Shown in pieces: positions 35,338 to 46,070 of a DNA stretch of 64,000 nucleotides. The position numbers were made by a program, and so were the translations under genes. The stretch is from Acidimicrobiales bacterium. Its GTDB lineage: Bacteria; Actinomycetota; Acidimicrobiia; Acidimicrobiales; MedAcidi-G1. A model generated the notes under the pieces. That model was not told the origin of the DNA. It was given only the letters and a program-made list of their open reading frames with translations, and searched no databases. The stretch's first letter is position 1. Each line of letters begins with the position of its first letter. The stretch is from positions 62,001 to 126,000 of the forward strand of contig JASLKK010000007.1 of assembly GCA_030747595.1 (NCBI GenBank), given 5' to 3'.

Positions 35338-35871
35338 CTAGCCGACGGGTAAGGCGATTCGCTGGCCCGGTTGGAGGATCGATCCGCCCGCCGCATCGAC
35401 CAATCGGTCGACTGTGGCCCGTAGGTCCCGACCGTTCGGGTTGATCGACACGGCGATTGACCAAAGGGTGTCACCCGGCTGGACCACGTGGACGATCGGC
35501 TCGCCCACCGCGGCGACCGCCGGTGCCCCCGTTGTGCCCGTGACCCGACCAATGAGTTCGCCACCCAACAGGGAGAGCGCCGAGACGAGCAACCCGAGGA
35601 CCACCGCGGCCAAGAACCGGCGCTGCCGGTAGACCCTCGGGGAGACCGCCGATGCGGCAGGAACCACCCCCTCGGCGGTGGTCTGTCGCCGAACGGCATT
35701 CACCACGGCGGGCTCGGCAGCGAAGACGTCGGTGACCAGTCGGTGCACGGTGGCCAGTCGCTCGGCGGGTGCCGGTTCGACCGGCGGGACCACCCGCAGG
35801 AGGGTCGGAGACTCGACGTCCGGGAACCGGGGGAAGTCGAGCGGAGGTTGGGAGGCGGTGGCGGTATTCAT
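35338..35871 (-). CDS. LysM membrane protein divergent from lexA (YneA/ChiZ-like SOS cell-division suppressor candidate)
   Basis: 177-residue protein with a ~85-residue cytoplasmic Pro/Glu-rich N-terminus, one membrane helix (~86-105, FLAAVVLGLLVSALSLLGG) and an extracytoplasmic LysM domain (~127-175, VVQPGDTLWSIAVSI ... LQPGQRIALPVG). Divergent position from lexA, shared LexA boxes, a single helix and a LysM match the architecture of Bacillus YneA and the lexA-linked mycobacterial Rv2719c/ChiZ and corynebacterial DivS. These delay division during SOS, so a similar role is likely but inferred. The start is ATG 35871, with AAGGA 8 nt upstream; an earlier ATG 30 bp away lacks this. Confidence 0.8.
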   Translation of the reverse strand: MNTATASQPPLDFPRFPDVESPTLLRVVPPVEPAPAERLATVHRLVTDVFAAEPAVVNAVRRQTTAEGVVPAASAVSPRVYRQRRFLAAVVLGLLVSALSLLGGELIGRVTGTTGAPAVAAVGEPIVHVVQPGDTLWSIAVSINPNGRDLRATVDRLVDAAGGSILQPGQRIALPVG

Positions 35872-35927
35872 GAGGACCATCCTTTCGATCGAGTGTGACA
35901 ACCCCCAGGGAGGGGGTACTTGACACG

Positions 35928-35969
35928 GAACGTCCGTTCGACGAACATGGTTTCGACGTACACGTGTTC
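35928..35969. promoter_or_regulatory. three tandem LexA boxes at 15-bp pitch
   Basis: Box 1 at 35928-35939 is GAACGTCCGTTC (perfect GAAC-N4-GTTC). Box 2 at 35943-35954 is GAACATGGTTTC (one mismatch). Box 3 at 35958-35969 is GTACACGTGTTC (one mismatch). Each is followed by GA(C/T) in a 15-bp unit, so the array is a direct repeat. It lies 57 to 98 bp upstream of the LysM gene start and should repress it until SOS induction. Confidence 0.85.
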
Positions 35970-35990
35970 GATCATGAGATGCAGTATATC

Positions 35991-36002
35991 GAACACCTGT
36001 TC
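35991..36002. promoter_or_regulatory. LexA box of the lexA promoter
   Basis: GAACACCTGTTC is a perfect GAAC-N4-GTTC box embedded in a longer palindrome with 9-bp arms (ATATCGAAC/GTTCGATAT). It lies 87 bp upstream of the lexA ATG. It is the strongest site of the cluster and expected to give lexA autorepression. Confidence 0.9.
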
Positions 36003-36088
36003 GATATCAAGAGATGGCGACGGAGTACATAGCCGGTACGACGAGACCGCACGACGAAACCCACCGTGCAGAGAGAAGGAACCCCGAC

Positions 36089-36721
36089 ATGAGCGCCACG
36101 GGACTTACCCCACGCCAGCAGGAGATCCTCGAGTTCATCGACATCCAGATCAGTGACCGTGGCTATCCGCCGTCCGTCCGCGAGATCGGCGATGCGGTCG
36201 GTCTCACCTCCCCGTCGACGGTGCACTCCCACCTGGCGACCCTTCAGGACCGGGGCTTCATCCGACGCGACCCGAGCAAGCCCCGGGCCATCGAGGTTCG
36301 CCTCGATCCGGCGAGCGGTGCGGCGGTCGATCGGGGCTCCGTGCGCCACGTACCCCTGCTTGGCGACGTGGCGGCCGGTACCGGTGTCATCGCCGCCGAG
36401 AACGTCGAGGAGTCCCTCCCTCTGCCGGCCGAGTTCACCGGCGACGGCGAGCTCTTCATGCTCCGGGTGCGAGGCGACTCGATGATCGGAGCCGGCATTT
36501 TGGATGGCGACCACGTGGTGGCCCGGGTCCAGCAGAACGCCGATGCCGGCGACCTGGTGGTTGCCGGGATCGACGGCGAGGAGGCCACCGTCAAGCACTT
36601 CCAGCGTGATGGTTCGGCCATCGTTCTGGTTCCCTCCAATCCGAGCTACGAGGAGATCCGTCGGTCGGCCGACGAAGTCACCATCTACGGCCGGGTGGTC
36701 ACCGTTCTCCGACGGATCTGA
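36089..36721 (+). CDS. lexA: LexA repressor
   Basis: 210-residue SOS repressor and self-cleaving protease. The N-terminal winged helix (TPRQQEILEFI, SVREIGDAVGLTSPSTVHSHL) binds GAAC-N4-GTTC boxes. The cleavage site is Ala96-Gly97 in GDVAAGTGV. The serine/lysine dyad is Ser131 (RGDSMIGAGI) and Lys169 (ATVKHF). All functional residues are intact. The start is ATG 36089, with AAGGA 8 nt upstream; a longer open frame begins just after the LexA box and has no such site. It is divergent from the LysM gene, with which it shares the control region. Confidence 0.97.
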   Translation: MSATGLTPRQQEILEFIDIQISDRGYPPSVREIGDAVGLTSPSTVHSHLATLQDRGFIRRDPSKPRAIEVRLDPASGAAVDRGSVRHVPLLGDVAAGTGVIAAENVEESLPLPAEFTGDGELFMLRVRGDSMIGAGILDGDHVVARVQQNADAGDLVVAGIDGEEATVKHFQRDGSAIVLVPSNPSYEEIRRSADEVTIYGRVVTVLRRI

Positions 36722-44754: not shown

Positions 44755-45888
44755 TCAGGTGTCCAAGGAGATGGGCAGATCGTCGACCTCGGAGAACTCC
44801 TCACCGCCGAGAGCCACTGCATCGGCTCCCACTTCGACAGCCTCGAGCTCCTCGGACTCTGCTGGCTGGACCTCCCGCCAGACACGGTCGGTGATCTCGA
44901 CCATGACCTCGGGGTTGTCGAGCAGGAACTTCTTGGCGTTCTCCCGGCCTTGGCCGAGCTGTTCGCCCTCGTACGTGTACCAGGCACCCGACTTCTTGAC
45001 GATGCCCAAGTCAACTGCCAGATCAACCACCGAGCCCTCGCGGCTGATGCCCTTCCCGTACATGATGTCAAACTCGGCCTGGCGGAACGGCGGGGCGCAC
45101 TTGTTCTTGACGACCTTCACCCGGGTGCGGTTGCCCACTACCTCGACACCGTCCTTGATCGCCTCGATACGGCGGATGTCGAGACGGACCGACGAGTAGA
45201 ACTTCAAGGCCCGTCCACCCGGCGTGGTCTCCGGCGAGCCGAACATCACGCCGATCTTTTCCCGCAACTGGTTGATGAAGATGAGGATCGTCTGGGACTT
45301 GTTGAGATTCGAGGTGAGCTTGCGAAGAGCCTGGGACATGAGCCGGGCCTGCAGGCCGACATGGGAGTCGCCCATCTCACCCTCGATCTCGGCTCGTGGG
45401 GTCAGGGCGGCCACCGAGTCGACGACCACCACGTCGAGCGCCCCGGAGCGGACGAGCATGTCGGCGATCTCGAGAGCCTGCTCGCCGGTGTCGGGCTGGG
45501 AGATCAAAAGTTCGTCCACATCGACGCCGATGGCTCGAGCGTAGGTTGGGTCCATGGCGTGCTCGGCGTCGATGTAGGCACAGATGCCTCCATTGCGTTG
45601 GGCTTCGGCCACCACGTGGGTGGCCAGCGTGGTCTTGCCCGAGCCCTCCGGCCCGTAGATCTCGACCACCCGGCCCCGCGGAATGCCCCCGATGCCGAGA
45701 GCCAGGTCGAGGGCCAGCGCCCCGGTGGGCACTGTCTCGATCGACATGGAGCCCTTGTCGCCCATCTTCATGACGGCACCGGTGCCGAACTGCTTCTCGA
45801 TCTGACCTAGGGCCATGTCGAGTGCCTTGGTGCGCTCGGATCCAGCCTCAAGTGCTCCGCCGCTCATCGTCCTGCCGTGCTTTGCCAT
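44755..45888 (-). CDS. recA: recombinase RecA
   Basis: 377-residue strand-exchange ATPase and LexA co-protease. The Walker A motif GPEGSGKT is at 79-86, with [20 protein letters not shown] (Walker B), the L2 loop region [13 protein letters not shown] and [13 protein letters not shown]. The acidic tail is normal. The ATG at 45888 has GGAGA 8 nt upstream. A LexA box lies at 46059-46070, 170 bp upstream. No intein or insertion is present. Confidence 0.98.
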
Positions 45889-46058
45889 GTGGTGTTCTCC
45901 AGTGTGTCTGTCGGCCCGGTGGCCGGTTCCAGTTGATCTGTTGTCGAGTTCGGGGTTGTTGGCGGTGAACTTAGGGATGGCCTGTGACAGCGTTTCTGAA
46001 GTTGCTCCTGAAGCGGGCTTCAGGAACGCTTCCCTTTGAATAACAGGAGTGTATTTCC

Positions 46059-46070
46059 GAACAGGCGTTC
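46059..46070. promoter_or_regulatory. LexA box between recA and msrB
   Basis: GAACAGGCGTTC is a perfect GAAC-N4-GTTC site within TTTCCGAACAGGCGTTCGATGC. It lies in the 219-bp divergent region, 170 bp from the recA ATG and 38 bp from the msrB ATG. recA is the expected target; msrB could also be affected. Confidence 0.88.

Follow-up and report, generated by a model that had tools for sequence, protein, structure and literature searches.

A conserved row of three LexA boxes on the predicted lexA promoter, and a probable second, PafBC-like promoter for the divergent LysM gene, in Acidimicrobiales

Introduction

In Mycobacterium tuberculosis, lexA is described as being under the control of a single SOS box, with three further boxes and a PafBC motif assigned to the divergent operon, which is named Rv2019c in the text of the report and rv2719c in the title of its supplement (PMC8151990). 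In Bacillus subtilis, the neighbor of lexA, yneA, is reported to encode an SOS-induced division inhibitor with a transmembrane segment and a LysM domain (PMC13396833). Close tandem LexA sites have been described in colicin operators, where two overlapping SOS boxes are linked to tight repression with no detectable basal expression (PMC2994835, PMC4482635). For PafBC-dependent promoters, the consensus tTGTCRgtg-8 nt-TAnnnT has been given (PMC5656591); the motif reported for M. tuberculosis is TGTCGG, TGTCAG or TGTCAC-10xN-TA-3xN-T (PMC8151990), and PafB is described as contacting a motif at -26 (PMC11804915).

Here we describe the lexA control region of a marine actinobacterium, a member of the Acidimicrobiales, analyzed within a stretch of 64 kb (the window). 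Like M. tuberculosis lexA/rv2719c (chiZ), the locus has lexA opposite a gene for a LysM protein predicted to inhibit division, four SOS boxes in total and a PafBC-type motif pointing away from lexA; unlike the arrangement described there, with one box for lexA and three for the divergent operon, a row of three boxes at a fixed 15-bp pitch lies on the predicted lexA promoter (PMC8151990). The close tandem sites recall those of colicin operators, although the latter consist of two E. coli-type boxes, for two LexA dimers, at the colicin gene and here there are three, at lexA (PMC2994835, PMC4482635). The gene pair likewise resembles B. subtilis lexA-yneA, except that division inhibition by the LysM protein is a prediction here, in contrast to what is reported for YneA (PMC13396833). 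The parts are, then, already known, and what is new is a three-box row of fixed pitch fused with the lexA core promoter, over five families. A search of one collection of papers for LexA or PafBC in the Acidimicrobiales found none on the lexA/LysM control region.

Results

The window contains lexA (36089..36721, plus strand), whose product, an S24 repressor/protease, matched Pfam LexA_DNA_bind (1.6e-26) and Peptidase_S24 (3.6e-31) and scored above the cut-off of NCBIfam TIGR00498. Divergent from it lies a gene for a 177-aa protein (35338..35871, minus strand) with a C-terminal LysM domain (Pfam LysM, 3.9e-6) and one hydrophobic segment, at residues 86-104; a search of NCBIfam gave no match for this protein. 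The locus thus has the layout of the lexA/YneA-ChiZ divergent loci, in which lexA stands opposite a gene for a transmembrane LysM protein, and tblastn found a LysM relative in 68 of 72 array loci. Judged by topology and locus only, the protein is YneA/ChiZ-like and a predicted division inhibitor.

Four boxes of the GAAC-N4-GTTC type, none assigned a strand, all lie between these two genes. Box 1 (35928..35939; GAACGTCCGTTC) and box 4 (35991..36002; GAACACCTGTTC) are perfect, and box 2 (35943..35954; GAACATGGTTTC) and box 3 (35958..35969; GTACACGTGTTC) have one mismatch each, that of box 2 in its right half. From one box start to the next the distances are 15, 15 and 33 bp, and box 4 lies within a palindrome with 9-bp arms, ATATCGAAC-ACCT-GTTCGATAT (35986-36007). 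The sequence therefore bears out the original prediction of three boxes at 15-bp pitch, one perfect and two with a single mismatch, followed by a fourth, perfect box in a 9-bp-arm palindrome. The GAAC-N4-GTTC palindrome also precedes recA, imuA' and dnaE2 in the same genome. Sites with at most one mismatch numbered 36 in the window vs. 24.3 expected, and by our own estimate three of them would be expected at one fixed pitch only ~4e-6 times. Considering this expectation, the absence of any match to the control pattern and, above all, the conservation of the array throughout the family (37/37 genomes), a chance origin was rejected. Elsewhere in the window's genome, single perfect extended LexA boxes stand immediately upstream of dnaE2, of imuA' and of an unassigned gene that we take, by eye, to be AlkB-like (L003, L004 and L005, respectively); no box array was found at these three loci.

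To follow the array in relatives, LexA was identified in 58 of 61 genomes, and upstream DNA was read for the LexA-bearing genomes and for further relatives. Every genome of the window's family (37/37) had three boxes at 15-bp pitch, one of them with 16 and then 15 bp; boxes 2 and 3, on whose conservation the original prediction depended, are thus kept. In the order, a strict pattern, which demands (A/G)AACAT, matched 44 of 397 genomes, belonging to families f1, f17, f27, f28 and f53 (reversed control, 0), so that the triplet also occurs in members of four families besides the window's own. Removal of copies reduced 205 loci to 148 distinct ones, which are not a random sample since families were added where the strict pattern matched; the loci of family f1 were found by LexA protein alone, with the same result. 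A triplet at a pitch of 14-16 bp was found in 79 of the 148 distinct upstream regions, and TTGAC stands eight bases before box 1 in 73 of these 79. In the 73 loci, for which TTGAC was a selection criterion, the pitch is 15/15 in all but one (72/73), and the distance from box 3 to box 4 ranges from 21 to 51 bp; the predicted 15-bp phasing is thus conserved, with box 4 loosely placed, which fits tight side-by-side binding of LexA. The array required 6 changes on a LexA tree with 147 rows (one row was dropped for a short LexA), vs. a shuffled mean of 49.3.

Two perfect boxes within 30 bp of each other occurred in 268 of the 397 genomes of the order, at many distances; close boxes are thus common, and what sets the array apart is its fixed pitch. 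Pairs 15 bp apart were also frequent among the other loci (26 adjacent pairs), with more peaks near 24 and 29-31 bp. A draw of 395 genomes of the class, members of the order included, gave 10 matches, all in the window's family, and in 40 out-of-class loci the 15-bp pitch occurred just once among the distances between adjacent boxes. Where a name is available, the organisms are mostly uncultured Acidimicrobiales, including several marine ones. Public records titled Bifidobacterium breve (L141, L142, L201 and L205) have an Acidimicrobiales-like LexA and are probably mislabelled metagenome bins. In L101 and L104, four LexA-like boxes stand in a row before lexA at 15-bp pitch.

The likely lexA promoter is TTGACA-N17-GAACAT, in which the -35 element (35920..35925, plus strand) is followed by a 17-nt spacer containing box 1 and by a -10 element (35943..35948, plus strand) that is at the same time the left half of box 2. 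Across the 73 loci the latter reads GAACAT in 70 and AAACAT in 3, and xAxxxT occurs at a spacer of 17 in 72; TAxxxT was found there in 0 of 73, and the first base is other than T in all 73, which counts against the promoter reading. Alternative spacings of 13-21 nt were examined and rejected. A LexA box places no constraint on its inner bases, and on the LexA tree bases 5 and 6 changed 7 and 19 times in box 1, 8 and 13 times in box 3 and 2 and 17 times in box 4, vs. 0 and 0 times in box 2; background columns that were sampled changed 19-26 times each. Fixation of these two bases is what would be expected of a -10 element with an essential final T, and the first base has presumably been kept as G, not T, because LexA needs it. 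The lexA ATG of L059 follows box 4 after only 25 nt, too short a gap for a promoter downstream of the array; the start of lexA transcription should therefore lie within or upstream of the array. We predict from these alignments that the triple array is first of all the operator of lexA.

At 10.5 bp per turn, 15 bp corresponds to 1.43 turns, and no shorter pitch would keep two CGAACN4GTTCG cores from overlapping and still leave one spare base. Such a pitch would favor some rule of LexA packing or contact, though it does not prove cooperativity. The six triple-box loci that lack TTGAC have a pitch of 14-15 bp (5 changes on the LexA tree), and this recurrence at other positions in the order could point to contact between LexA molecules there.

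A scan for promoters of the LysM gene gave one promoter-like site, TTGATA-N16-TATACT (36010 to 35983; shuffle mean, 0.0), hereafter P1, with its -35 element at 36005..36010 and its -10 element at 35983..35988, both on the minus strand. TTG occurs near the former position in 72 of 73 loci, and TAxxxT at a spacer of 15-18 in 64, vs. 22 for a control hexamer pattern; the 9 loci that lack such a TAxxxT count against P1. Box 4 fills the 16-nt spacer and is the only one of the four boxes inside the LysM core promoter. Transcription would begin at about 35955 (plus strand) for lexA and at about 35976 (minus strand) for P1. The two promoters would then face each other, and their transcripts would start ~22 bp apart and overlap by ~22 nt across box 3, which lies between the two presumed start points.

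A second candidate promoter, P2, reads TGTCACAC-N8-AAGGAT on the minus strand (35900-35879) directly before the LysM ATG. Its -26 element, TGTCACAC (35893..35900), is of the PafBC type according to the consensus in PMC8151990, resembling the published variant TGTCAC-N10-TA-N3-T, and would sit where PafB is described as making contact. Its -10 element (35879..35884), which is also Shine-Dalgarno-like, ends 7 nt before the ATG, so that a leaderless mRNA would be expected. TGT(C/T)(A/G)CAC was present in 99 of the 148 loci and absent from the stretch examined in 49. Where the hexamer could be read, xAxxxT followed at exactly N8 in 95 of 97 loci; other spacings from N3 to N14 reached 13 at most and were rejected. 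The start codon lies 6-7 nt past the hexamer in 88 of the 99 loci. A TGTC(A/G)-type element 8 nt before a -10 is what the PafBC motif calls for, and A is found at position 2 of the hexamer; since TA opens it in only 3 of 97 loci, we call P2 PafBC-like and do not class it as a PafBC promoter. Most hexamers have a base other than T in first place, and many resemble a Shine-Dalgarno sequence.

The genome encodes both PafB and PafC, in that WYL/WCX and HTH_PafC proteins adjoin pafA and the proteasome genes, both matching the PafBC chains in the PDB (entries 7p5x, 9fnd and 6sj9). In 17 genomes of the genus the motif had 112 matches, vs. 10 for the reversed control. The genes read downstream of it include recN (L218) and topoisomerase IIA subunit A (L215), both in this genome, radA (L234, a relative) and, at some sites, small leaderless ORFs. 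Seven of the 40 out-of-class loci have a PafBC-type motif opposite lexA (our own chance estimate, ~1). A search for RNA families in the P2 region and three other motif sites (4 loci) found none. Taken together, the motif, its spacing and its neighbors suggest that the LysM gene probably has a second, LexA-independent damage promoter, and the P2 hexamer may be both the ribosome site of a long P1 mRNA and the -10 element of P2.

Mycobacterial recA is described as having a LexA-controlled promoter paired with one of the PafBC type. At recA in the window (45888-46070, minus strand), a LexA box (46059) lies between TTGCAT and TACACT, and TGTCACAG-N8-TAAGTT (45989-45968), closely related to TGTCACAC, lies nearer the gene and downstream of the LexA box, a predicted pair of promoters, one with LexA control and one of the PafBC type. 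A small conserved ORF of 55-101 aa begins 6 nt after TGTCACAC-N8-xAxxxT at L214, L233, L235, L236, L240 and L248; the one tested had no Pfam match, and its product is a candidate new DNA-damage protein. Right behind the same motif at L224, L238 and L249 stands another small ORF, of 67-85 aa and with cysteines; again the one tested had no Pfam match. Products that we take, by eye, to be sigma-like regulators follow the motif at L230 and L243 and could relay a damage signal; L229 and L231 we take to be DUF222/HNH-like.

Discussion

We lean, with moderate confidence, toward a two-gene SOS switch, consisting of a lexA promoter with boxes 1 and 2, LysM P1 with box 4, and the PafBC-type P2 beyond the reach of LexA. 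The boxes, their pitch, the geometries of both promoters, the P2 motif and pafBC are supplied by sequence and conservation, to which the model adds presumed start sites, LexA binding, a roadblock, PafBC action and division-inhibitor function. In this model, transcription of lexA would use TTGACA-N17-GAACAT, with box 1 in the spacer and box 2 at the -10 element, and the LysM gene would be read toward lexA from TTGATA-N16-TATACT, with box 4 as the spacer. Dimers of LexA sitting on boxes 1-3, at the tightest packing that 14-bp cores permit, would shut lexA and also block the path of the P1 transcript, and a dimer on box 4 would shut P1 itself. RecA-driven cleavage of LexA would free both promoters, and P2, beyond the array and out of the reach of LexA, would yield a leaderless LysM mRNA.

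The original prediction had placed the regulatory effect elsewhere, with the triple array holding down the division inhibitor so that it would be induced later, and controlled more tightly, than lexA. Transcripts from P1 must indeed traverse boxes 3, 2 and 1, and M. tuberculosis offers a precedent in that three of its four SOS boxes, together with a PafBC motif, are described as acting on the rv2719c side (PMC8151990). We nevertheless regard this reading as unlikely, since in every one of the 73 loci boxes 1 and 2 lie on the lexA core promoter, the LysM core promoter holds only box 4, and P2 bypasses the array. What stands of the predicted mechanism is a real and conserved array; it is sited on lexA, and the inhibitor is left with one LexA box and a likely LexA-independent promoter. 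Somewhat less likely still is that neither box 2 nor box 3 acts as an operator, box 2 being a -10 element that resembles a half-site, box 3 a weak site, and LexA binding only boxes 1 and 4. Drift at the second base of box 3 and in the right half of box 2 (4, 1, 8 and 3 changes on the tree, vs. mostly 0 in other boxes) would agree with it. However, the right halves change far less than background; that of box 2, though relaxed, would thus still be selected as an operator. Furthermore, 17 of the 73 loci have a perfect sequence in each of the three boxes, and the four-box rows of L101 and L104 keep the 15-bp pitch.

It is also improbable, to about the degree given for an array acting on the inhibitor, that the P2 hexamer is a mere Shine-Dalgarno sequence and TGTCACAC a leader element, with no promoter there. 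Most P2 hexamers are AGGA- or GAGA-like and at a proper distance from the ATG, as this reading would have it. Against it, some hexamers have no Shine-Dalgarno look (TACGGT, TACAAC, CATGAT, AATACT and CACACT), and a few of these have the start at least 30 nt on; the spacing is exactly N8, copies of the motif stand before recN and radA, and the near-copy TGTCACAG stands before recA. For these reasons we retain P2 as a promoter within the two-gene switch. A stronger version of that switch, which we offer tentatively and regard as rather doubtful, would have three LexA dimers form a cooperative, helically wound block at closest packing, fused with the lexA -10 element and lying across the facing promoters. 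In that case lexA and the division inhibitor would each hinder the other's transcription, and a leaderless mRNA made under PafBC would render division arrest independent of LexA.

The locus presents a deeply conserved operator with natural variation, some of whose bases have to suit both LexA and RNA polymerase. It further indicates that the double control of lexA's LysM neighbor by LexA and PafBC, reported for M. tuberculosis, extends to the Acidimicrobiales, a distant and mostly uncultured order.
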